DNA from: a virus | Length of the DNA: 21,416 bases | Strand: one strand, 5' to 3' | IMG/VR virus record: IMGVR_UViG_3300043449_000486 | Coordinates: 1 to 21,416 of that record | Part shown: positions 1,992 to 19,042 of the stretch, one piece after another | Position numbering within the stretch: the stretch's first letter is position 1 | Layout of the letters: each line of letters begins with the position of its first letter | Position numbers and translations under genes: made by a program | The notes under the pieces: generated by a model | The model's input: only the letters and a program-made list of their open reading frames with translations | Told to the model about the DNA's origin: nothing | Databases searched by the model: none

Positions 1992-4847
1992 TTAAGACAC
2001 TACCCACCGGGCAGTTCCAGACAACGTCACCGATACACCCCCAGAGATAGTAATTGGCCCTGCGCTCATGGCAGAGTTCCCTGTGGCCACAGTATAACTG
2101 GTTGATACCGTTTGGCTATTCACCACAAGCCCATTGGTTGCATTCAGCACCGTCGAAGCCAATTCACCCGTTGATGGCTTGTAGAGCAGCTTTGCATTGG
2201 AGGTGTAAATCGCGCTTGCTGTTCCTGACGTTGCCGCAAGGAATGCCGGATAAACATTCGTGGCCGTAGTGGTGTCATTGGTTATTGCTGACCCGCCCAC
2301 CGACGACCACGCCGTCCCGTTATAGCCTTCAAATTCCGTTGTCGTCGTGTTGAAGCGCAACTTTCCAGCGACGCCTGTTGGTCGTTGAGCCGTAGTTCCG
2401 CTGGAAAGCTGAACTGCGCCCGTCGATGTAAATGACGAGTCCGACGAGGCTGTCATTGTCGTGAACGTACCAGCCGCAGGAGTTGTTGCGCCTACTGTCC
2501 CGTTCAGAGCCCCAGAAAACCCGGCACCGGTTACCGTCAAGGCACCAGTTGATGGGTTAAAACTCAATTTTGTCGAAGTTACCTTTGCCGGCAAATTCCC
2601 GGTATTTGCGGTAACCCAGACGGGGTACATCGTTGCGTTGGTCGAGGCGTCATCTGTAATGCCGATGTTCGTGCTGTTTGTGGCATTGGTGGCCGATCCA
2701 ACCGCAAGAGTGCTTTGAGCCACATACTGCGGGGCTGATGCCCCTGCCGTTAGAACATACCCAGATGTTCCAAGATTCAGGAATGTGGTCGTCCCGGAGG
2801 CCGAGTTATACGGCAAAGATCCAGTACCGCCACCGGCAATGTTGGTGGAAGAAGTTGCGGTCGACGCATTTCCGTTAAGACTTGCCGTAATCGTTCCGGC
2901 ACTGAAGTTTCCAGAACCGTCCCGCTGAACGATGGCCGAAGCCGTATTTGCTGATGTGGCCGTCGTCCAAGTCGGAGTTCCCGCTCCAGCAGAAGTCAGA
3001 ACCTCACCAGAAGAGCCGGCGGCGGTAAAGGCGTATGCCGTTCCAGTTCCATAAGCCATTGCCCCAGCAGTGGGGGTTGCAATCGCATTTGTGCCGCCGT
3101 TTGCGATAGCCAGCGTTCCGGCCATCGTAATCGTTCCGCTGGTGGTGATTGGGCCGCCAGAGAACGTCAGGCCAGTCGTCCCGCCCGACACGTCAACCGA
3201 AGTAACCGTTCCCAGTGGGTTTGTAGACCATTGGAAAGTCGCACCAGACCATTCAAGGTAGGTGTTAGCTATCGTCGGAGCGGTAATAAAATTGGTCGTT
3301 CCAGAACCGGTCTGGTAGACAATCTGGTTTGCGGCGCCTCCGGCAAGATTGGTCGATGTCGTCGCAGATGTGGCCGTTGCGGCATTACCTGATATCCCAA
3401 TGCCCCAAGTACCCGTGGCCCCTGTCCCATCAGTCTTTGGGGCGCCAACGGTGCTGTAATCAACAGTTCTAGCTGCAGAACCATTGAAAGAGGTGTTTGG
3501 AGCATCACCGCCCGTACTGTTAAAAGTCACCGAGTTAGCAACAGAACCTGCTTGACCAGTCGTGTTTTGATTTAGCGTCGGAACATCCGCAGCCACCATG
3601 GCCCGGAAAGAAGGCACGCCCGGAGCGCCATTAGGGGCTGCAAAAATATAGTTTTGGGTTTGGCTTGCCCATGCACCGGTCAGAGTTCCTGATGTCGTAA
3701 CGGGAGAACCGCTGACAGAGAATTCTGAAGGCAACGAAAGGCCAACAGAGGTCACCGTGCCAAGAGGGTTCACCGACCACTGGAAAGCAGAGCCAGACCA
3801 CTCCAAAAAGCTATTGGCGACAGACGGCGCAACCACAAAGGTAGTTGCTCCGGGGCCGGAGTTGTAAATAATCTGGTTGGCAAGCCCGCCTGAGACATTG
3901 GTGCTGGTTGTTGCGGTTGCAGCGTTTCCTGAAATATCTATATTCCAAGTTCCAGTTGCACCTGATCCAGAACGAGATGGAACGTCAAGATTGGTACGCG
4001 CATTACCTGCATTGGCTGCGCCAGTGCCCCCGTTATCCACGTCCAACGTCCCACCCAGCACCACGGCCCCAGAAGTTGGCGTCGATGGCGTCAGCCCCGT
4101 GGAACCTCCACTGAACGTTGTGACCCCGCCGGTAACCGAAAATTGTTCCCACGATCCGCCGGCAAAACCGTAGAAATTCTGGTCATCTGAGTTAAAGCGG
4201 ATCTGGCCATCAACCCCTGCCGGCTCCTGCGCTGTCGTCCCAACCGGGATCTTCATTGCTCCGGTGCCCGGAATAACAGGGTTGGCAGCGATCGACAGCG
4301 TTGGGTTCCCACCGGAACCGTTGCCATTGGCCACGTCGATCTGATTGGCCGTTCCTGCCACTAGCACGGTCCCGGCAGTCGTTCCCCCTTGAACCGCTAC
4401 CAACCCCGTCCCGCCGACACTAGCCAATGCTCCCGCAAGCCCATCCAGAGACACCGTAGGGTTTCCAGAGACACCAGATCCGTTGGTAATGGATAACCCA
4501 TCCCCGGAAACCGCAATAGAACGGGCCGCCACGGTGTTTGACCCGGTCTTGGCTACCATCCCATTGCCCATGGACTCAAGCGACCCAGAAGCCCCGTTTA
4601 GCGTGATTTGGAGGGTGCTTTGGGCCCCACCGTCCGTCAGACCAATTCCAGTTCCACCTGACAACGCACGGCTATTTGGTAACGTGGGTTCCTGATTTTT
4701 GGTAATGAACGTCTGCTGCTGGTCCGGGGCGCCAGCCACGGCAGAAGTCGTTGTTCGAACCGTTATGCCGTTTTGAACGATTGGAACTAATTCGTCCCCA
4801 TCTATCGGGCCGGCCGCCGGCAGGTCAGAAATTGAAATGTTAGGCAT
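1992..4847 (-). CDS. Long tail fibre protein (951 aa) with internal repeats
   Basis: A 951-residue, Gly/Ser/Thr/Ala-rich, low-charge protein with no enzyme motif, as expected for an elongated trimeric fibre shaft. Residues 1-35 form an N-terminal module (ISDLPAAGPIDGDELVPIVQ) that recurs in the 194-residue protein upstream, probably for virion attachment. A block of about 100 residues occurs twice (about 294-391 and 474-574), each with SGNAATAT, ANQI, LEWSG, FQWS and NPLGTVTSV; a degenerate third copy starts near 657. GTTAQxPxGVxGxxRFN units at about 203-218 and 818-833 are common in phage fibres. The C-terminal ~44 residues match those of the 109-residue protein. The ATG overlaps the previous stop (TAATG). 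Confidence 0.88.
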   Translation of the reverse strand: MPNISISDLPAAGPIDGDELVPIVQNGITVRTTTSAVAGAPDQQQTFITKNQEPTLPNSRALSGGTGIGLTDGGAQSTLQITLNGASGSLESMGNGMVAKTGSNTVAARSIAVSGDGLSITNGSGVSGNPTVSLDGLAGALASVGGTGLVAVQGGTTAGTVLVAGTANQIDVANGNGSGGNPTLSIAANPVIPGTGAMKIPVGTTAQEPAGVDGQIRFNSDDQNFYGFAGGSWEQFSVTGGVTTFSGGSTGLTPSTPTSGAVVLGGTLDVDNGGTGAANAGNARTNLDVPSRSGSGATGTWNIDISGNAATATTSTNVSGGLANQIIYNSGPGATTFVVAPSVANSFLEWSGSAFQWSVNPLGTVTSVGLSLPSEFSVSGSPVTTSGTLTGAWASQTQNYIFAAPNGAPGVPSFRAMVAADVPTLNQNTTGQAGSVANSVTFNSTGGDAPNTSFNGSAARTVDYSTVGAPKTDGTGATGTWGIGISGNAATATSATTSTNLAGGAANQIVYQTGSGTTNFITAPTIANTYLEWSGATFQWSTNPLGTVTSVDVSGGTTGLTFSGGPITTSGTITMAGTLAIANGGTNAIATPTAGAMAYGTGTAYAFTAAGSSGEVLTSAGAGTPTWTTATSANTASAIVQRDGSGNFSAGTITASLNGNASTATSSTNIAGGGTGSLPYNSASGTTTFLNLGTSGYVLTAGASAPQYVAQSTLAVGSATNATNSTNIGITDDASTNATMYPVWVTANTGNLPAKVTSTKLSFNPSTGALTVTGAGFSGALNGTVGATTPAAGTFTTMTASSDSSFTSTGAVQLSSGTTAQRPTGVAGKLRFNTTTTEFEGYNGTAWSSVGGSAITNDTTTATNVYPAFLAATSGTASAIYTSNAKLLYKPSTGELASTVLNATNGLVVNSQTVSTSYTVATGNSAMSAGPITISGGVSVTLSGTARWVVS

Positions 4848-5197
4848 TAGTTTGACGAGGGCGTAACCTCAATCCCTTCCATGTTGCCGTCATTTTGAAC
4901 GATCCCGCCACTTTCACCCACCGACAAAATAGCGCCACTGTAGCCCCCAACGGTCAAATTATTTGGGTTTGTGGCGACACTGACATCAGGACGGGGGAAA
5001 CGAAGGTTGATCCGCTCCGTCTGCCTTGCTGGGAGCCGGTACGGGTCTTTTTGATCAGCGCAACCACGCCCGCATACCTGCAGACCGGGAAAATTGGGAT
5101 CACTTCTCATCTCGGCATGAGGCCGCTTCATACGACAGCGGTCACAGATTGCTATTGCAATCGTTGAGTAGCCGCGAGTGTCAAGGAATCTAGGCAT
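4847..5197 (-). CDS. Zinc-ribbon-like small virion-region protein
   Basis: A 116-residue protein. Residues 14-52 hold a CDRC pair (C18, C21) and a second pair CGRGC (C42, C46) separated by ~20 residues, suggesting a zinc-binding knuckle; DPYRLPARQTERINLRFPRPD (51-71) follows and looks conserved in style. The C-terminal 45 residues are Gly/Ser/Asn-rich and flexible. The gene sits between the head-tail adaptor and the long fibre and is coupled to both by TAATG overlaps, which points to a role in tail or connector assembly. Zinc binding is inferred from cysteine spacing; the function is unknown. Confidence 0.75.
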   Translation of the reverse strand: MPRFLDTRGYSTIAIAICDRCRMKRPHAEMRSDPNFPGLQVCGRGCADQKDPYRLPARQTERINLRFPRPDVSVATNPNNLTVGGYSGAILSVGESGGIVQNDGNMEGIEVTPSSN

Positions 5198-6282
5198 TAG
5201 CGAGAATACACAGAAATGTTTGGCGCAAAATAAATTGGACTTTTATCCCTTTCTTCCTGCTCTGCTTCATACAAATACTTATCGGATTGTTTTTCCAAAT
5301 AACCGATGCGATCTACTGCAACACCGGGTATTTCCATGCTCATTTGATGTGCAAGCATGGACTGAATGGCCAAGTACCACCGTTGAGGAATTTCCAATTC
5401 ATCCGATAACGCCCCGACATCCTGAATTTGCCTTGAGCACCAGACCGTCATTTGCACAAAAGCATTTGAAGGCACCGGCCACAGATACATGGAAGGTTGC
5501 GGAATGGTCCTGTCGAACCAGAACTGGAACGGCTGATTCGCCGTGAAGTTCTTGTTCGGAAGGTTGGTGTAGTCATCGCGGTTCAATCTGGCCATCGTGA
5601 TTTCTGTCGAGTTGTTCCCGACATAGAACTCACGCAATGCCAAAGTCGTTCCACTGTAAGCCCTTACACGGTAATGCTGAACATTCTGTCCCGGATCAAT
5701 ATCATTCCAAATCCATTGGTTGTCAGTGACCGTCACTTCACCAATGTCATACAGCGTAGTCCACGTTATTCCGTCCGTGGAATACTCCAGAATGAGAGAC
5801 CATATCGCAGAACCACCTCCGGCCACATAAGGCAAAACGCCTATCGAGCCGGCATAAATGGGGTTTGAGGTCCCGTAATCAATGGCAATGTTGCCATTTG
5901 CCGAGGTTTGAATGCAGGCCGTATCAGTATCATTGTCAAACGCATTTGCTACCGTTCCCCCTGCCGACGTGCTGTACCCACCAGTGGCGTTTGGCGTGGG
6001 ACGATTCATCTTACGATACAGCGCATTCAACACATCCACAGAACCCAGCGGAAGCGTGTAGATGTACTTGTTTGGCGTCAGCCCAATAACCTTCTTGGTG
6101 ATCGCCCAGTACTGAATCCCGCGATTGGCAAGGTTGGACAACAGATAAAAAAGACTCTCCCTTGCTGAAAGTTGCTGCTCTGACGTGAGTTCTTCAGCCA
6201 ACTTTCCGCATCGACGAGCGCCATGATCGATGAGTGTTTGCACGTCTACAACGGTTTGTCCAGTCGTTCCACTGTAAGACAT
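5197..6282 (-). CDS. P22 gp4-like head-tail adaptor with inserted discoidin-like domain
   Basis: A 361-residue protein. Residues 10-95 (QTLIDHGARRCGKLAEELT, ARESLFYLLSNLANRG, YTLPLGSVDVLNALYRKMNR) and 226-361 (EITMARLNRDDYTNLPNK, FWFDRTIPQPSMYLWPVPS, ELEIPQRWYLAIQSMLAHQM, YFAPNISVYSR) have the helix-strand-helix style of podovirus connector/adaptor proteins, which dock on the portal and plug the filled head. Between them, about 96-224, sits a beta-rich block with FDNDTDTACIQT, IAIDYG, LEYSTDGITWTTLYD and HYRVRAYSG, a pattern like F5/8 type C (discoidin) carbohydrate- or surface-binding domains. The two flanks read as one adaptor if the block is removed. A GAGGT site precedes the ATG. Adaptor role is likely; the insertion's identity is by pattern only. 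Confidence 0.75.
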   Translation of the reverse strand: MSYSGTTGQTVVDVQTLIDHGARRCGKLAEELTSEQQLSARESLFYLLSNLANRGIQYWAITKKVIGLTPNKYIYTLPLGSVDVLNALYRKMNRPTPNATGGYSTSAGGTVANAFDNDTDTACIQTSANGNIAIDYGTSNPIYAGSIGVLPYVAGGGSAIWSLILEYSTDGITWTTLYDIGEVTVTDNQWIWNDIDPGQNVQHYRVRAYSGTTLALREFYVGNNSTEITMARLNRDDYTNLPNKNFTANQPFQFWFDRTIPQPSMYLWPVPSNAFVQMTVWCSRQIQDVGALSDELEIPQRWYLAIQSMLAHQMSMEIPGVAVDRIGYLEKQSDKYLYEAEQEERDKSPIYFAPNISVYSR

Positions 6283-6698: not shown

Positions 6699-7283
6699 TT
6701 AGACCACCTGCAACATGGTGACGATGACCGATGGGATCGCCGGGTATGCAGGGGTCACGCTGGCCGGTAGGTGTTCCATGGTCACAGTGATGGCCGTGGG
6801 CAACCAAACAACCTCGACATAATCGTTGGCGGTCAAGTCCAGCAGGAAGGTCAGGGACGCAACACCGTAGCCAAAGATGCTGGCGCTCTTGCGAGCCGGG
6901 ATCGTGTACTGGGTGGCCGAGTTGGCCAGATCGACACCGTTGACTCGAAGCCAGACCGTGACATCCTCCTGCGCGTTGTTCGTGTTCTTGAATTGCGAAC
7001 TGAATTGCAGGTTGTACTTGCCGGTGTTGGGCACGGTGATGCGGCTGCTGCTGACCAGCGTCACGCCGTCGGCCACATCAATCGTATCGAGGGTCATCAC
7101 GGTGCCTGCGCTCACGCTACCCGTCTGGTCTGTGCCGTCACTGAATCCGCCGTAGGCGTTGTCATACGTACGCAAGGTATCGACCGTGACCTTCACATTT
7201 GCACCGCTTTGCACCAAAGGCACGAGTTCCGCGCCAGTCAGAGTGGCCGCAGAAGGCATCGCGGAAATTTTTTGGTCTGCCAT
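6699..7283 (-). CDS. Head-fibre or tail-fibre-like protein with shared N-terminal attachment module
   Basis: A 194-residue protein. Residues 1-35 (ISAMPSAATLTGAELVPLVQ then SGANVKVTVDTLR) match the N-terminus of the 951-aa fibre. The rest is beta-rich with a C1q/TNF-like pattern: SSRITVPNTGKYNLQFSSQF, VTVWLRVNGVDLANS, LTANDYVEVVWLPTA, PAIPSVIVTMLQVV. Such jelly-roll tips are known in phage head fibres and short tail fibres. The position between head-decoration and adaptor genes fits a virion-surface protein. The ATG overlaps the previous stop (TAATG). Trimerisation and receptor binding are inferred from the fold-like pattern, not shown. Confidence 0.75.
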   Translation of the reverse strand: MADQKISAMPSAATLTGAELVPLVQSGANVKVTVDTLRTYDNAYGGFSDGTDQTGSVSAGTVMTLDTIDVADGVTLVSSSRITVPNTGKYNLQFSSQFKNTNNAQEDVTVWLRVNGVDLANSATQYTIPARKSASIFGYGVASLTFLLDLTANDYVEVVWLPTAITVTMEHLPASVTPAYPAIPSVIVTMLQVV

Positions 7284-7838: not shown

Positions 7839-7866
7839 AAAAAACAGGGGCCGAAGCCCCTTTTTT
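7839..7866 (-). terminator. Strong intrinsic terminator with UUCG tetraloop (also works in the other direction)
   Basis: On the minus strand GGGGC-TTCG-GCCCC (7860-7847) is followed by TG and six T (7844-7839). This is a perfect 5-bp GC stem closed by a C(UUCG)G tetraloop, the classical Rho-independent form. On the plus strand the same palindrome is followed directly by six T (7861-7866), so it can act both ways. It begins right after the TGA of the 360-aa gene and lies before the ribosome binding site of the next gene, so it should reduce or end head-gene transcription before the downstream genes. Confidence 0.9.
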
Positions 7867-8948
7867 CAATTAACGTTGCCGCCCTTTTTGCGTTGAGGAA
7901 CGACAGTCGTTGATTCCCGAGTCTTCGTAACAGCGCCCGGTGCAGATCCCAACGCACCCTTGACCTTGTCCACCAATGGGCGGATATAGGTCATCGGGTT
8001 TAGCGCGTCACTCAAAGCCTTGTTTTCTTCAGCTTCCCGCTCGTAATGGGCCTTAAAGCCCTTTGACTCACGCTCGGATTGCTTGTCCGACAAGCCACCC
8101 CCATTTTTTCTCTGAACCTTCCCGCCATTCTTGAAAGTTCCAGAAAGCTGGTTGATGACTACCGGAGGTGTTGGCTTTTTATGACCTTGCGGCATCGCCA
8201 CAGGTTTCCCCGTATTAACAAGGCCCCCCGTGGCGAAAGCTTTTTTTAGGGCACCACCTTTCTTGTAGCCCCCAGCATTAGCTTTCTTGACTTCGCCGGT
8301 CGTGGTGTTGGTCTTTCCCGGCGGAGTGCCAACTACGTTACCTTCAACGTAATCCATCACGCCACCATGGCTCTTGCGAGCGACCTTGCCACCATTCTTG
8401 TATCCACCAGCATTGGCATTTTTGACGCTACCAGTCTTGGCGGGCGAATTATCACGATTGGCTTCGTGCATCAGGGTAGTTTTGTACGGCCCCACACCCC
8501 TCTCAGACTTGATGATGCCGCCAGAGGCAAACCCTGCAGCCCCCATCGCAACACCACCAGATTTGAGTTTGAGTTTGGTGCCTTTGCCACCTTTATGCTC
8601 TTGCGCATCATGCTGTGCCATGGCCTTCTTAATCATGGCTTTGTCTTGCGCGACATCTCCGCCACTCTTCATGGGACGTTGCCGTGCCATTTGCGCCATC
8701 ATCATCGCCTTACGCCGATCCGCCATTGAAGGACGACGCGGGGCAGCAGCCTCAAGAGGCGCGGCGCTTCCACCAACCATTGGCAGACCACGAACGCCCA
8801 TAGGGCCACCATCAAACTTGTGCATCGGCTTATGACCGCTTTCCGCCTTTGCACTGCCCTTTACAGAAACGTGGCCACCTTTCTTCAACTTAAGCATGAC
8901 TGAAGGTTCAGTGGTTTCCATCTTCACCATCGGTTTGAATTGACCCAT
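7866..8948 (-). CDS. Lys/Gly-rich repeat protein with K-x-G-G motifs (360 aa)
   Basis: A 360-residue, strongly basic, low-complexity protein. The motif K-[KSN]-G-G followed by a hydrophobic residue within two positions recurs at about 22, 94, 129, 184, 229, 273 and 354, with related ASGG and ATGG at 141 and 239. A ~20-residue direct repeat is present (about 171-192 and 216-236), both containing NANAGGYK or KANAGGYK. The C-terminal third has a helical, charged stretch (LSDKQSERESKGFKAHYERE). AAGGA lies 6 nt before the ATG. It follows the 149-aa capsid-region gene and precedes the terminator. No enzyme domain is seen; binding to DNA, membrane or capsid is possible from charge but not shown. Confidence 0.78.
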   Translation of the reverse strand: MGQFKPMVKMETTEPSVMLKLKKGGHVSVKGSAKAESGHKPMHKFDGGPMGVRGLPMVGGSAAPLEAAAPRRPSMADRRKAMMMAQMARQRPMKSGGDVAQDKAMIKKAMAQHDAQEHKGGKGTKLKLKSGGVAMGAAGFASGGIIKSERGVGPYKTTLMHEANRDNSPAKTGSVKNANAGGYKNGGKVARKSHGGVMDYVEGNVVGTPPGKTNTTTGEVKKANAGGYKKGGALKKAFATGGLVNTGKPVAMPQGHKKPTPPVVINQLSGTFKNGGKVQRKNGGGLSDKQSERESKGFKAHYEREAEENKALSDALNPMTYIRPLVDKVKGALGSAPGAVTKTRESTTVVPQRKKGGNVN

Positions 8949-11832: not shown

Positions 11833-12780
11833 CTAATTACTCCTTGAGCGTTGTTCTTGAGCGTAACGGCGAATCATTTTTGCTCGTTTTTCGGGGTCTT
11901 CCCACATGCCGGCATCCTTCATCGCCCTGACCTGATCAGGCGAAAGCGTGAACGACGTTCGACCACCGCTACTGGCCGCATTTTCCCGACCGCTGCTGGT
12001 CACAACGCTTCGCGGGGTTCGTGGAGCGACCCGTTCTTCGCTCTCCTCGTACCTGTGCGGGAGCCTCTTTTGGAGTCTGGCGTCCAGTTCTTCCCAGTAA
12101 TCAGGGTCTGCCGGGTTCCAGCCTTCCTTAACCAATCGTTTATCAATGGTCAGGGCAATTTCGGAATCCTCATCGTTCCCGCTCGGGTCGTACCAGTCGT
12201 TTTTCTCCATCCACCGCGCCGCCATCTTCTGAACGTTACGGTCAGGGGCTATGGTTGGCTGTTGGCGGGGTTCCGTCGCCCTCTGCTTCAAAGCCTCCAG
12301 CGATTCAGCGGCCCGACGCGCCTCAAACCACATTTCCTGCGCATTGGCCATCCCTTCGCCGTCTTGGGCGCTCGCAGCTTCAGACATCTTCATCTTTGCA
12401 TACTGGATTCGAACCTGCTGATCTTCTATGGCCTTGTCGATTCTCGCCAATTCAGAACCATGCGTCCGTTGCTCTACGGCCGACAATCGAGCCAACAGGT
12501 CTTGATTCTGCCGCTGCAGTTGCTGGAAGCGAATGTCCTTTTCCTGCTGCTGTTGCCGGTGGTAAATCTTTTTTGCTTTGCGTTTTTCACGGCGAGCAGC
12601 ACGAATCGCTTCAGTGTCGTCAGGGTGGTCTTCTTCCTCTTCAACCTCCTTTGCGGGCTCGGCCTCAATAGTAACTTTGCCCTCTTCCTCCGGGACATCT
12701 ACGCCCTCAATTGTGGCGCTACCGTCGGATTGCTCCGCAACGACCAGTTCATCTTTTGGGATTTCTTTTTCTTCGTTCAT
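11833..12780 (-). CDS. Probable capsid scaffolding protein
   Basis: The start is taken at ATG 12780 (MNEEKEIPKDELV), which overlaps the TGA of the co-chaperonin gene (ATGA); a longer in-frame extension to 12900 would read back through that gene and gives an unlikely sequence. The 315-residue product has a very acidic N-terminus (about 20-60, with EVEEEEDHPDD), a Gln/Lys/Arg-rich coiled-coil region (about 60-165, with HRQQQQEKDIRFQQLQRQNQ), a central region with WMEKNDWYDPSGNDEDSE and a basic C-terminal helix (DPEKRAKMIRRYAQEQRSRS). Acidic, helical and ending in a basic helix is the usual shape of phage scaffolds, which bind coat protein by that end. Its place before the capsid genes agrees. 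Confidence 0.72.
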   Translation of the reverse strand: MNEEKEIPKDELVVAEQSDGSATIEGVDVPEEEGKVTIEAEPAKEVEEEEDHPDDTEAIRAARREKRKAKKIYHRQQQQEKDIRFQQLQRQNQDLLARLSAVEQRTHGSELARIDKAIEDQQVRIQYAKMKMSEAASAQDGEGMANAQEMWFEARRAAESLEALKQRATEPRQQPTIAPDRNVQKMAARWMEKNDWYDPSGNDEDSEIALTIDKRLVKEGWNPADPDYWEELDARLQKRLPHRYEESEERVAPRTPRSVVTSSGRENAASSGGRTSFTLSPDQVRAMKDAGMWEDPEKRAKMIRRYAQEQRSRSN

Positions 12781-13208
12781 ACAAATGCTCGCATTTCTAG
12801 CGGGTTGCCAGTGATTTTTGCGATGATCTCGTGATCGTTCAACACCATGAACTCCACTTTGTCCTCGCCTTCCGGTGCTCCCGGAACCATCACTTCCCAC
12901 CGATCAGCAGTCCATTTCGGCACTCGCAGATAATCACCAACATCGCACCACGAGCCTTCAGGCCACGGCTCCATTGAGTCGCGCTTTTTGAAAGCCAGCG
13001 GGCCTATCGACACCACCTTACCCACAGGATTCTGGGCTTTTTCGGTGTCTCGGGTTTCCTGCGCCAAGATAATTCCTGATGCAGTCACCCGCTTTTTCGG
13101 CATCCTCAATTGAACAAGGACTCTAGCGCCAAGGGGAATCGCACCGGGATCTACAGCAGGGAAAGCCCCCGCCAAATCAGCATCGTTAGACGCTACCGGA
13201 TTATTCAT
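12777..13208 (-). CDS. Phage GroES-like co-chaperonin
   Basis: A 143-residue protein with the GroES/Cpn10 pattern: GARVLVQLRMP (first strand), a mobile loop RVTASGIILAQETRDTEKAQ (40-59) holding the hydrophobic G-I-I-L that in GroES contacts GroEL, then PVGKVVSIGPLAF, WCDVGDYLRVPKWT and a final VEFMVLNDHEIIAKITG. GroES is ~97 residues; this one has a ~25-residue N-terminal extension and an insertion around 73-85, as in phage versions such as T4 gp31, which replace GroES to fold the phage coat protein in host GroEL. No GroEL gene is in the window. AAGGA lies 5 nt before the ATG, and the start overlaps the end of the 59-aa gene by 8 nt. Confidence 0.85.
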   Translation of the reverse strand: MNNPVASNDADLAGAFPAVDPGAIPLGARVLVQLRMPKKRVTASGIILAQETRDTEKAQNPVGKVVSIGPLAFKKRDSMEPWPEGSWCDVGDYLRVPKWTADRWEVMVPGAPEGEDKVEFMVLNDHEIIAKITGNPLEMRAFV

Positions 13209-13515: not shown

Positions 13516-16029
13516 TCAAACTCCTCTTAAATTGCGTTGAATTTCATTTTGCAAGGCAATTACTGATTCGCCCTGCTCCTTTTTAAGCCTTGCGGCCTCC
13601 AAAGTCAGATCGAGCGTCTTCATGCGCTCGTTTGTAAGATTATTTTCAGTGTTTTGAGCGGCTTCAAACTGCAATTTTTGCGATTCCAGCATGTTTTTGT
13701 TTTGCATTTCCGCTTGTTTCAACTGAATATCAGCCTGATCACGCGCAGCACGACGCTGAGTCTCTGCCGTTGACGCCTGAAGCACCGCTTGAGCGTCCCC
13801 ATCCATCGGCGCAGGCTTGGGTTGCGAGAATTGCTGGGCTACCTGCATCAATTGCTGGATCTGCGGCATGATTTGCGCAAAGGTTTGCTGCGAATCCATC
13901 TGCAAATGCGCCGCGGCAACCGCCATTGCCCGGTCAATCTCCGGCGCAAGCTTGGAGTCTTCGTATTTTTGCTGTTTCACCTTCGCCGGCACCAGCGTGT
14001 ACCCGTTCATTTTCTGCGTGTACCACAACATCATGTGCTGCTTAATGTGCGCAAGCACTCCGGGAGCAAATACCGGCGCAACGATCGGGTTCATCCCCAA
14101 TGCCGGGTCCAAGGCGAACGCCAAGTGAGTTGCAATGTGCGCCATGTGGTCCTGCCGGGGGTACGCTACCGCTATTCGCCCCATAGCTATGGCAGCATTT
14201 TCATCGGCGGCATGCATTTCCTGCGGCTTGGAGTACTGCGGCATCATCGCCTGAAGATTCGGGATCTTCATCTGCTTTAATGCCTGACCCACCACTACTC
14301 GTCGGTCAAACAGATCAGGATATTTGTCCATGTAGGACAGCACCGCCTGCGTCTGCGCCATTCTCTGAGTCTCGGAGAATATATGCGGATCTGAGACCGG
14401 AATAACGTCCCCATTGCGCTTGAAATCCTCTTTCTTGATGGGCAATTCCGCAACAACGTCGCCCTTTTTCTGTTCATCAAGATACCAGCGATTCAGTCGC
14501 TGAAGCACTTGAAGAACTCGCCGTTGTGAGTTATGCAGTCGCGCATGAATTGCTGAAAATACCGCCGCGCCTTGCTCAATCAATGCCTGCGTCGTTCCAA
14601 CAGGGGCTTGACTGGTGATGTCAGCAATCTTTTCCTCGCTCGTGGTCACAACACCCTTGGCTGCTTTCTCAAGGAACCCCAAGAGACTGAAAAGCACCGT
14701 TGAGGGTGGGTTGAACGGCATTGCAAAGGCAATTTTCTTGATGTCGTCTACACCGGGAGCGCCCTCAATTTCCACCACCTGCGTGACGTCCACTTGCTGG
14801 CTTTGGCCGCTTATACGAGCCCCTTTGAGCTTCAGCATCGTGGGGGCATTGTTGATGTGGGCCGAGTCCAGCAACGCCCTCAGAGCGCCCGTGAGAGCGG
14901 CAGCAAGCCCTCCAATCAGATGTGGAAGACCAATTGCGTAAGCCCCACGCCACGGGATGAATTTGAACTCAATCAGCCAATCCAGTTTGGTGAACGTTTC
15001 GTCGCCGTCTTCCCAGTTTCTGTACAGGCCAAGCACTTCCATGTCCAGTTCGTCGACCATCAGAATGTAGGGAGCGTTCTTGCCCTTGGTTTTCGGGTCG
15101 TCCTCCAGATCCAGCCAAGTGTAGATATGGAAGACACGCCGCAGCCCATCTTCACCGCTCTGGTATTGCTTCCCCTCGATCTTGTTATTGGCCTTTTCAG
15201 CCAAGCTGGGGTCCGGCTCCATCGAGGCGCGGATAATATCCACATCACGGTAAAGCCCGCGGGAAATGCGATTCTTGAATTCCCATTCCGAGATGTTATG
15301 CACCTCAGTTACTCGTTGCGCAGTGTAGAAATTCACCGCGCTGAACGGCAGATACACATTATCAATCGGCACAAACTCAACACACGGCCGCTTTTTCTGA
15401 TCGTCCCACCACATCTTCAGGAACTGACTCCCGCCCAATGGAAGCTGCGCAAGTAATTGTTCCTGCTCGTCGCGGAACTCTTCAATCTGCTCGGTCAATT
15501 GCCAGTTCATGTAGTCGCGCTTGCGCTCGGCAACCTCCGTTTTTGCTTCCGTAGCCTCGCCAATGATGTTGGTTCTTGCGGGGCCGTCCGGTGGAAACAA
15601 CTCCTTGATTGCTTTGGCAGCAAAGTCAACACAGGCTTCAGCCATTACCGGATGAACAACTTTCGATGCCCCATTAAACGTCGCCCCGCCGGGAGCGTCG
15701 TTTCCAAGACCCGTCCTTCGCAGGCCGTCCTCGTACTGCTTGTCACGCTCTTTCCTCGCTTCCTTGTCCTTCTCGATCAGGTCAAGGTAACGTGACGCAA
15801 TGGAATTCAGATCGCCAATGTCCAGAGTGTCTGCAAGGTTTTCATAAAAGTCTGCAGACTCCTCCGGGCCGCGCACGTTGTCCTCTACCGTGACAACCGC
15901 AGATCCATCCCCCAGTTCTTCAACGTCCATGGGTTGATCAGCGATGGAGACCTCCGCCCCACCATTTGGAAGCATGGTCAGTCCGTCAATAAAACGCCCG
16001 AATTGCGGATCTATGGGCATATCAGCCAT
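13516..16029 (-). CDS. Portal protein (P22-like in style)
   Basis: An 837-residue protein, in the size range of large podovirus portals (P22 gp1 is 725). The N-terminal ~60 residues are acidic. The core has FNGASKVVHPVMAEACVDFA (118-137), FPPDGPARTNIIGEAT, LPLGGSQFLKMWWDDQKKRP (196-215), FVPIDNVYLPFSAVNFYTAQ and PPSTVLFSLLGFLEKAAKGV (441-460), typical of portals that tell DNA-filled heads from empty ones and form a 12-subunit ring. From ~700 the chain is Gln/Ala-rich and helical, about 130 residues, like the C-terminal barrel of P22 portal. It overlaps the 1006-aa gene by 8 bp. Assignment is by pattern and position. Confidence 0.85.
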   Translation of the reverse strand: MADMPIDPQFGRFIDGLTMLPNGGAEVSIADQPMDVEELGDGSAVVTVEDNVRGPEESADFYENLADTLDIGDLNSIASRYLDLIEKDKEARKERDKQYEDGLRRTGLGNDAPGGATFNGASKVVHPVMAEACVDFAAKAIKELFPPDGPARTNIIGEATEAKTEVAERKRDYMNWQLTEQIEEFRDEQEQLLAQLPLGGSQFLKMWWDDQKKRPCVEFVPIDNVYLPFSAVNFYTAQRVTEVHNISEWEFKNRISRGLYRDVDIIRASMEPDPSLAEKANNKIEGKQYQSGEDGLRRVFHIYTWLDLEDDPKTKGKNAPYILMVDELDMEVLGLYRNWEDGDETFTKLDWLIEFKFIPWRGAYAIGLPHLIGGLAAALTGALRALLDSAHINNAPTMLKLKGARISGQSQQVDVTQVVEIEGAPGVDDIKKIAFAMPFNPPSTVLFSLLGFLEKAAKGVVTTSEEKIADITSQAPVGTTQALIEQGAAVFSAIHARLHNSQRRVLQVLQRLNRWYLDEQKKGDVVAELPIKKEDFKRNGDVIPVSDPHIFSETQRMAQTQAVLSYMDKYPDLFDRRVVVGQALKQMKIPNLQAMMPQYSKPQEMHAADENAAIAMGRIAVAYPRQDHMAHIATHLAFALDPALGMNPIVAPVFAPGVLAHIKQHMMLWYTQKMNGYTLVPAKVKQQKYEDSKLAPEIDRAMAVAAAHLQMDSQQTFAQIMPQIQQLMQVAQQFSQPKPAPMDGDAQAVLQASTAETQRRAARDQADIQLKQAEMQNKNMLESQKLQFEAAQNTENNLTNERMKTLDLTLEAARLKKEQGESVIALQNEIQRNLRGV

Positions 16030-19000
16030 GTCGTTTCCTTAGTTGTTTGTTCATCACAGCCATCTGCATAGCATCTTGGTTTACAGGGCCACCGCGCTTC
16101 ATGCCACCTTCAGGTTGCTTCCAGGGATACAAAAACTGATCGATTTCATCTTGCGTAGCATAACCGCCTAACTTTTCCCGCATAGCTTTCGCCAGTGGCT
16201 CATCACCGTACGAAGAGGCTATGTTCTTTAACCCCGTATTCTGCAAGTCCCCCACATCGCTCCACTGCTGCGACTTAACGAAGTCTTGAATGAAGGGCAA
16301 GTCTTCCGGATTAGGCTTCTTGTTTTGCAAACCTTTAATCTCAGCAATCTTTGGAGGAAGTTCAGCGGTAAGTTTGGCAAACTCTTCTGGGTTTGACTGT
16401 TGGAGCCAAGGCCAGAAGTTGTCGGAGAAGTGCATAGTGTGTTTGCCAGATGCGGCAAATGCTTTTTGATACTCGCCCAGCAACTCTGGAGGAACGCCTG
16501 CAATATCCCGTAATCCCCTTGCCGGGTCGTTGCGCGCTTGCTGCTTTGTACTAATTTGCGCTACAGCCTTGCCTTCTGGGTTATGCAGCACATACAGCCG
16601 GTTGTTGCCACTCCCATATCGCATAGCAGTGTTTGCGCCTTCCGTACACCACCCACCTTGACAGCCAACTTCAGTAGCGTATTTCAAAGCTTCTGGGCTG
16701 GTTTGCAGGTCAGGCAACGCCAGCCATTGGTAGCCTTCCGGATACTCTTTATGAACAGGGATGCCTTCACGTGCAACGTTAAGTGCGTCTTCACTTTGCA
16801 CTTTACGCCATGCGTTGATCTCATCAACTCGTGCAACAGCTTGCGGCACGGACCACTTGGGTAAGTCTTTCGGGTCAATCTGGAATGCTTTGGGCAGGTC
16901 GGTGTCCGCACGAGTCGCGTTGCGTAGTTCGTCGATGAGATGGTTAAAGCCAAGCTTCTCAGCCGCTTGTTTAGTGGCCAATGAATATGCCATCGCATTG
17001 GGGTTGGCAACTGCATATTCACCACCAAGATCTCTTAACGCCCCGGGTAAACGATCAGGCGTGGCTTTACTTGTGCCACGAAGACGATTACCGTATGTGT
17101 CGCCAAAAACAGCCGCATCTGCCACGTCTTCCCAAGCCCGACCTTGCGCGCCTCTCCCTCTAGTGTAGTACTTTTTGTCACCAATGCTGCTCGTCGCGCC
17201 TCGAGCCAAGCTTGCATCAGCACTGACATCCTCCGGTTTAAAGTGCAACCCAGTGCGCCCCTCAATCAATTCTTTTTCTTTTTCCAGATCGCGGATTCGA
17301 GCCTGCGATCGTGTCAGCATCTCCGGGTTCACACCTCTCTCTGACTGAGCCTTGCGCAAATCAGCAGTCGCTTTGTCAATCTGTTTTTGCTTGGCGGCAA
17401 GCAACTCTGCTTTCACTTTTGGGAATGACTCGGCCTGAAGGCGAACAGGGTCCTTCTCAGTTGCCATCTCGTTCTTGACGTATTTTGTCAAGTTCTTGTC
17501 GACCCAGTTGTTAATAGAAGATCTTGCGACAAAATCCTCTGTGTGCTCACCCGGAATCTGAATAACAGTGCCTGACCTTAGATCATCCAACGGATAAGTC
17601 CCACCAGCGATCCAGTTGCCGCCCGGATCTTTGATGATGTTCAGACCGTGCGAAGGCTCTGAAATTTTTGATGCGGCAAAGGGCTTCAAACGCTTGTCAA
17701 CACGTCGACCTTCATCAGAAGTCGCACGAAGCGCCAATCCAGCTCTTGTCAGATAGTTCTCAGCCATCTCCCCGGCTGTTGGTGCAAGTGCTTTAGCACC
17801 ACGACCAATGGCCTTGGCCACCTGAGGCAATGATGCGATTGCTTGTGCAATTGCCACTGCGTTCCCGCCTGTGATCCCAGCCTTTAGATCGTCCGATGTG
17901 TTTTCAGGCAAATAGTATTCTTGCAATCGTTCTGTCGTAGGCAGCGCACGTAGCACCTCGGGAAGCTCAGGAGCGCTTGAAGGCTTGAACTCCTCGTACA
18001 GCGAAAGCAAGTCACCCGGAATCCCGGGCAATTGCGCGGCATAACCAGCCAGCGCGCCCATTGCGCCTTTGCCAAGCCCCGCCGCTTTTGCAATGGCGTC
18101 ATCAATGCTTTTTGGAATCCGCTCAGTCAGCAATCGTTGCCGCGCCTCTTGTTGTGCCGCGAGGTACTGATCAAAGTCTTTTTCGAACTGACTTATCGTT
18201 CGGGTTCGCGCTGGAGCATATCCCCTAATCGGCCCTTGCTTGGCTTGCGCGAGCTTGGCTTGCGCGATGGTCTCGTCAACATTTTTATTCACAGCGCCAC
18301 CTTTGCGGAATGGGAAATCTTCTGGGTCACCATACTGCGGTTTTTTCGCCAGCACCAACGGACCAATCTGTATTACCTCATCAGCAGAAACTATCGGCGA
18401 CATAGTCTCCCGGTCGTAAAAGTACCCATGCCGCTCTGGATCATAACCAACCTGCCGCCAGTCCTTGTGCTTCAAGTACTTCTGAGCCTGCTCCACAGCA
18501 AATGCTTCATCCATCGGGTTCCACCCGCCGCGAATGACGGCAAACGGTGCCTTTGACGTCTCGCCCGTCGCCACCTTCATTGCTTTTTCCGGAGAAGGAA
18601 TCATCGTCGCATCGGTCACAGACGATGTCGACCCATACACCGTAGGAGCCCCCTTGCGATGAATGCTATTTACCCAGACGCCGTGCTGACTGTATGCAGG
18701 GATGTCCAACCTGAGATCCGTCACCTCTCCGGCACCAATATCAGCGGTTTTCCCGTATGCACCGCGCTTGTTTGATGTCAAAGCAGCAATAGCCTCATCA
18801 ACGGTCGCTGGCTTTGGAATAAATTCATAGGGCTTAACGGGCTTCAGCGCATTGACAAGAGCAGCATACTCGCTCTGGGTCATCCTGCCGGCCTGCACCC
18901 GTCTAGCGGCCTCTGTAAGTTCAGGAACGCGAGCGGTCACGTCCTTGTATGACATATCAAGCCGATTAACCGCTGGCACGTCAACCTTCGGCGCGAACAA

Positions 19001-19042
19001 ATCAACCACTGCTTTGAGTGCTCTCTTTTTACTCACGATCAA
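16022..19042 (-). CDS. Large polyvalent-type protein between terminase and portal (1006 aa)
   Basis: The start is TTG at 19042, overlapping the terL TGA; a GTG at 19036 (MSKKRALKAVVDLF) is equally possible and neither has a clear ribosome binding site. Residues ~90-240 form one compact region (VWVNSIHRKGAPTVYGST, HKDWRQVGYDPERHGYFYDR, ADEVIQIGPLVLAKKP), a pattern I know from phage large polyvalent proteins. A KGG motif (247-249) follows, then helical linkers, a coiled coil (~545-600) and ~770-870 with WLALPDLQTSPEALKYATEV, GGWCTEG, LYVLHNPEGKAVAQIS, which recalls PcfJ-like domains in weak form. The end has MKRGGPVNQD. Such proteins are thought to enter the host with phage DNA; that is inference here. 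Confidence 0.7.
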   Translation of the reverse strand: MIVSKKRALKAVVDLFAPKVDVPAVNRLDMSYKDVTARVPELTEAARRVQAGRMTQSEYAALVNALKPVKPYEFIPKPATVDEAIAALTSNKRGAYGKTADIGAGEVTDLRLDIPAYSQHGVWVNSIHRKGAPTVYGSTSSVTDATMIPSPEKAMKVATGETSKAPFAVIRGGWNPMDEAFAVEQAQKYLKHKDWRQVGYDPERHGYFYDRETMSPIVSADEVIQIGPLVLAKKPQYGDPEDFPFRKGGAVNKNVDETIAQAKLAQAKQGPIRGYAPARTRTISQFEKDFDQYLAAQQEARQRLLTERIPKSIDDAIAKAAGLGKGAMGALAGYAAQLPGIPGDLLSLYEEFKPSSAPELPEVLRALPTTERLQEYYLPENTSDDLKAGITGGNAVAIAQAIASLPQVAKAIGRGAKALAPTAGEMAENYLTRAGLALRATSDEGRRVDKRLKPFAASKISEPSHGLNIIKDPGGNWIAGGTYPLDDLRSGTVIQIPGEHTEDFVARSSINNWVDKNLTKYVKNEMATEKDPVRLQAESFPKVKAELLAAKQKQIDKATADLRKAQSERGVNPEMLTRSQARIRDLEKEKELIEGRTGLHFKPEDVSADASLARGATSSIGDKKYYTRGRGAQGRAWEDVADAAVFGDTYGNRLRGTSKATPDRLPGALRDLGGEYAVANPNAMAYSLATKQAAEKLGFNHLIDELRNATRADTDLPKAFQIDPKDLPKWSVPQAVARVDEINAWRKVQSEDALNVAREGIPVHKEYPEGYQWLALPDLQTSPEALKYATEVGCQGGWCTEGANTAMRYGSGNNRLYVLHNPEGKAVAQISTKQQARNDPARGLRDIAGVPPELLGEYQKAFAASGKHTMHFSDNFWPWLQQSNPEEFAKLTAELPPKIAEIKGLQNKKPNPEDLPFIQDFVKSQQWSDVGDLQNTGLKNIASSYGDEPLAKAMREKLGGYATQDEIDQFLYPWKQPEGGMKRGGPVNQDAMQMAVMNKQLRKRHG

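Follow-up and report, generated by a model that had tools for sequence, protein, structure and literature searches.

The stretch of DNA analysed here (21,416 nt, positions 1 to 21,416 of IMG/VR virus record IMGVR_UViG_3300043449_000486; hereafter the window) carries a run of genes specifying the small and large terminase subunits, a 1006-aa protein, the portal, a GroES-like protein, a possible scaffold, the capsid protein, small proteins and an adaptor of 361 aa (nt 5197–6282). The adaptor is followed by a Cys-rich, zinc-ribbon-like protein of 116 aa (nt 4847–5197) and then by fibre genes, among them one for a 951-aa fibre-like protein (nt 1992–4847) with the N-terminal module ISDLPAAGPIDGDELVPIVQNG. 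These three genes, and all parts of the adaptor described below, lie on the minus strand, and the order of adaptor then fibre is like that of phage SU10. A module of the form ISxLPxAxxxxGxELVPxVQxG is shared by the N-termini of the proteins encoded at nt 6699–7283 and nt 1992–4847 (E 2e-9, fibre profile) and may represent a common attachment module. Among the remaining genes, the 1006-aa protein (nt 16022–19042, between terminase and portal) gave no confident family match, the GroES-like co-chaperonin (nt 12777–13208, between the portal and capsid genes) matched PF00166 with an E-value of 9e-8, and a 360-aa low-complexity protein with KKGG/KSGG repeats, encoded beside the capsid genes (nt 7866–8948), had no family match.

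Of 158 insert-bearing relatives, 148 have the Cys-rich gene following their adaptor gene. At one related locus (L348:3001–4050) the adaptor frame continues into the Cys-rich protein, giving a single reading frame of 350 aa, and in another relative (L056:6068–6637) a short gene, the start of which resembles an HNH homing endonuclease (HKHHIIPRYMGGT), lies between the two. By eye, the Cys-rich protein may also be related to the N-terminus of a larger protein encoded after the adaptor in phages CRP-901 and HTVC027P.

The 361-aa protein was recognised as an adaptor from its reading frame, matches to phrog_12985 and Pfam, and an AlphaFold model. The phrog_12985 family (238 aa, function unknown) matched with an E-value of 2e-15, best over residues 223–316, while PF24175 (SU10_adaptor) scored 19.1 bits (E 0.0019), below the curated cut-off of 27 bits. 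The PF24175 scores of insert-bearing relatives reach 27.1–30 bits, and those of insert-free homologues range from 37 to 57 bits. At E ≤ 0.01, 40 of 48 aligned relatives matched PF24175 and 31 matched PF00754 (F5/8 type C). In BFVD the best full-length match came from an uncultured phage and is itself uncharacterised (E 6e-30, TM 0.70); a search of NCBIfam returned no match, and sequence searches against solved structures gave weak matches of the gp4 or CBM32 type and nothing stronger. At least 590 stretches in IMG/VR are related to this adaptor, and the insert-bearing version is carried by a phage group that is mostly freshwater.

Residues 92–224 (nt 5611–6009) form an F5/8 type C (discoidin/CBM32) domain that is absent from insert-free relatives, and its insertion within a portal-tail adaptor is, in our judgement, close to certain. 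The first-pass annotation had placed a discoidin-like beta-sandwich at residues 96–224 (nt 5611–5997); the mapping is correct and the fold assignment holds, with domain edges lying nearer 92 and 224. Submitted alone, residues 96–224 matched PF00754 with an E-value of 7.4e-7 and 29.8 bits, above the cut-off of 28.2, compared with 26.6 bits for the whole protein and 33.6 bits for a relative (G002). The full-protein AlphaFold model, made from 48 sequences, has a mean pLDDT of 80.7, and the insert is among its best regions (mostly 80–93). There, residues 92–224 fold as a jelly roll, matching CBM62 2yg0 and CBM32 7d29 (Z 16.4, rmsd 2.5, 126–128 residues); galactose-, fucose- and alginate-binding modules rank next, and lectins too are among the matches at Z of about 16. 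With known CBM32/F5/8C domains (PF00754; 7d29, 2j1a) it has in common the jelly roll (Z 14–16), a DGxxxT-like motif and a C-terminal Glu, but those examples occur in enzymes and lectins that are secreted or lie at the surface, and their ligands have been demonstrated, whereas the present domain is part of a phage neck protein. Discoidin-like domains do occur on virions, as at the C-terminus of the phage LKA1 tailspike (PMC5701251), although there the carrier is a tailspike and not an adaptor ring.

Conservation points to a probable structural calcium-site motif, N113-x2-D116-x4-T121 (nt 5920–5946), with E218 (nt 5629–5631) as a probable further ligand; these residues presumably constitute the usual calcium site of the F5/8C family. 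In 79 window-like sequences N113 is present in 78, and D116, T121 and E218 are each invariant (79/79). A PF00754 search of 20 records found one match in each of nine, always in the adaptor, and a second match in none.

The remainder of the protein consists of an N-terminal flank (residues 1–91, nt 6010–6282), assigned by models and by alignment with insert-free homologues, and a C-terminal flank (residues 225–361, nt 5200–5610) supported by the phrog_12985 and PF24175 matches and the model. The former holds the first helices and the first strands of a fibre-dock-type beta-domain (residues 59–91, nt 6010–6108), ending with the strand directly preceding the insert. The latter holds the rest of the dock domain (residues 225–285, nt 5428–5610), a second helix pair and, at low model confidence, a conserved C-terminal arm (347–361). 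Both dock halves were mapped by alignment from an insert-free model. Since the list of structural matches for the full protein was filled by the insert, the adaptor part was assessed on L118, a homologue that has no insert and is related to Roseobacter phage CRP-901 (model pLDDT 74.9). The L118 model matched portal-tail adaptors of A4 (Z 12.4), VP1 (12.1), GP4 (11.6), Pa223 (10.6), N4 (10.1), SU10 (9.8) and T7 (9.0), full-length over about residues 8–214, i.e. across both the helix bundle and the fibre-dock beta-domain; at an rmsd of about 5–6, the likeness is one of fold and not of details. Its residues 58–154 also matched the T7 gp17 N-terminus, gp48/gp49 of Shigella phage B2, and baseplate domains of T4 and P1.

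In the published description of the SU10 adaptor, a helix bundle is accompanied by a dock domain for the long tail fibres and by an embracing loop at the C-terminus; P22 gp4 has no dock domain (PMC9509320). On the strength of the fold match, the middle beta-domain predicted here is equated with the fibre dock of SU10 and T7. The helices, a peripheral beta-domain of the fibre-dock kind, the second pair of helices and a C-terminal arm recur in SU10 gp11 (PF24175) and T7 gp11, and insert-free homologues match PF24175 by sequence and these structures at Z of about 9–10; the SU10 dock, unlike the present one, carries no discoidin domain. The flanks had been read in the first-pass annotation as a gp4-like connector. 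An adaptor fold was indeed found, but one of the SU10/T7 type; a plain P22 gp4 type does not fit, as the model contains a beta-domain of the dock type. A weak N-terminal similarity of the insert-free profile to gp4 nevertheless remains (E 0.015). The accompanying premise that adaptors are buried at the portal-tail joint does not suit this class, in which the middle domain is not normally buried and is the place where fibres attach. In the L118 model a hairpin loop, about 11 residues long and lying between strands 80–90 and 102–104, joins the flanks, and model comparison shows the discoidin domain replacing this loop.

Annotated phage relatives found by tblastn include adaptors without the insert, in CRP-901 and CRP-902 (226 aa), Alcaligenes phage QDWS535 (230 aa), ct2G2228 (220 aa) and ct7L0027 (230 aa), and adaptors with it, in the Caulobacter phages RW, RLK, KcrB and GB2A (328 aa) and in ctpbd312 (352 aa). 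HTVC023P (231 aa) and DSL-LC04 (221 aa, with the record note "Pam1 adaptor protein") likewise have none. CRP-901 gp54 aligns with both flanks and matches PF24175 over its own residues 13–204 (E 1e-13). The locus scans, which gave the best matches of each scan and not a random sample, showed that each of the 237 full-length adaptors of the insert-bearing groups is long enough for the insert (103 window-like, 55 ctpbd312-like and 79 Caulobacter-like), with two further reading frames in the same groups shortened. The relatives lacking the insertion that the first-pass annotation had proposed to look for amount to 218 loci in three clades (CRP group 80, HTVC023P group 75, ct7L group 63) and six single phages. 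The shorter Caulobacter-type insert is homologous to that of the window (hhalign probability 98, E 7e-14) and, despite having no N-terminal part, including the calcium motif, has been kept.

Whether the block is an insertion or an integral part of the adaptor fold can be decided from these comparisons. Its occurrence in every full-length close relative sampled would fit an integral part, but in several lineages of homologues about 10 residues connect the flanks at this point, and the insert-free model already possesses the whole adaptor fold. The insert-free homologues rule this reading out, and we assign it practically no weight. With a beta-sandwich match for the block, and adaptors that align with both flanks and are devoid of it, the first-pass proposal of a discoidin domain inserted in a head-tail adaptor is upheld. 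In a tree of the flank columns a branch with a support of 0.998 sets the insert-bearing adaptors apart from the others. Because homologues without the insert exist and those with it form one clade, the F5/8C domain was most likely acquired and not ancestral, judging from sequence; as the tree was built with FastTree and rooted at its midpoint, gain is likelier than loss but is not proven.

In Pelagibacter phage HTVC027P and related phages (75 loci; L085:5455–6393, relatives L250–L329) the adaptor belongs to the same family and likewise has an extra domain of about 75–80 residues in the dock region. It differs from the discoidin domain in sequence and, when placed by eye, lies ahead of the strand after which the discoidin domain begins, and is apparently a separate gain; HTVC023P, a neighbour of the HTVC027P group in the tree, has no insert. 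A further variant was seen in 023Pt_psg01 (L089:5374–6471), the adaptor of which has about 125 extra N-terminal residues that have no Pfam match and contain a cupredoxin-like-looking motif, YYCTAHSGMGN.

In 18 of 20 records (e.g. L084:20049–20684, L083:14925–15578 and L082:13577–14203) PF24175 was matched at E 1e-21 or better by a further protein (phrog_2941), about 215 aa long and lacking the insert, which fits this SU10-type family better than the discoidin-bearing adaptor does. A single adaptor of this kind has been described for SU10, while the present phages encode two, and two different chains of the GP4 portal-tail complex match the insert-free L118 model. Phages with the phrog_2941 paralogue may therefore have two adaptor rings in the neck, of which the discoidin-bearing one may be the portal-proximal or the second; given this paralogue in the same phages, its place at the portal is unproven.

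The insert is less conserved than its surroundings, with a mean pairwise identity among 79 window-like sequences of 66%, compared with 78% and 81% for the flanks. Median dN/dS values were 0.10 for the insert and 0.07 and 0.03 for the flanks in window-like sequences (from few pairs with high dS), and 0.28, 0.24 and 0.19, respectively, in the Caulobacter type. With dN/dS values near those of the flanks, the insert is kept by purifying selection, slightly relaxed, and is not hypervariable.

SU10 and T7 adaptors are dodecamers, and by analogy the present adaptor would also form a 12-mer. The dock domain would then lie outside the ring, so that the F5/8C domains would form an outward-facing collar around the neck, beside the fibres. 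This arrangement appears probable because the dock is on the outside of the ring and a domain of 130 residues is too big for the channel. The figure of up to 12 copies around the neck, given in the first-pass annotation, is plausible to the extent that the SU10 and T7 dodecamers and the placement of the insert in a peripheral fibre-dock domain can be extrapolated. The termini of F5/8C domains are together at one end, and consequently the loops at the opposite end, which in other members of the family are the ligand-binding ones, would be directed outwards from the ring. Some F5/8C domains are structural and some bind protein, and binding of a glycan or other surface by this one is suggested tentatively. 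The reading that we favour, with a probability of roughly 0.4 for the whole, is that the domain was acquired once, by the ancestor of the phage group, in the hairpin loop of the tail-fibre-dock domain, that it is displayed outwards as a collar, and that weak, multivalent binding of surface or extracellular glycans assists an adsorption led by the fibres, this last step being a speculative best guess. Several observations count against an adhesive role. Receptor-binding parts are often hypervariable and the insert is not, its invariant positions look like residues of the fold core or the calcium site rather than of a ligand site, and the Caulobacter version is kept without the calcium motif.

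Bracing or docking is nearly as likely as adhesion, though still doubtful when taken alone: the domain would be an elaboration of the fibre dock by which the tail fibres, or the small Cys-rich protein, are braced or held in position at the neck, its ligand being another virion protein. The location in the dock domain and the purifying selection are in line with this, as is the proximity of the Cys-rich gene and a characteristic fibre, whose N-terminal module is found at 71 of 80 window-type loci and at 0 of 80 insert-free CRP-type loci. This association is confounded with clade, however, and the insert-free ct7L has a related N-terminal module. The partial distance correlation with the fibre N-terminus is also lower for the insert (0.14) than for the N-terminal flank (0.35), but such correlations with the fibre or Cys-rich protein do not separate the readings because neighbouring genes share their history. 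It is less probable that the domain serves as a spacer or gasket in the neck, stabilising the virion by occupying the space left between capsid, portal vertex and tail, with no outside binding. In SU10 the dock loops of the adaptor lie opposite the capsid, with a symmetry mismatch between the two (PMC9509320), and the discoidin domain is fixed in its clade, which would suit a spacer; against it, relatives manage without the domain, and an unrelated small domain was inserted nearby in HTVC027P. Set beside these, the adhesion collar could also be one case of a wider pattern, to which we give only limited credence: the fibre-dock domain would be an evolutionary insertion site for display modules, producing a neck collar of about 12 binding domains, separate from tail fibres and capsid decorations, and the discoidin version would be an adhesion device in its own right.

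Adaptor rings are regarded as conserved joints. The component parts of the present protein are already known, and in the open-licence literature searched no description was found of an adaptor combined with a discoidin or galactose-binding domain; the closest report by wording, on Vibrio phage Peru-2 (PMC13320782), concerns a tailspike and not an adaptor. A widespread domain of sugar-binding type, maintained by selection in the fibre dock, together with an unrelated domain gained close by in another lineage, would turn the neck of common freshwater and marine phages into a site of modular display. Two phages of a model host, Caulobacter phages RW and GB2A, carry a version of the insert, which makes the proposal directly testable.
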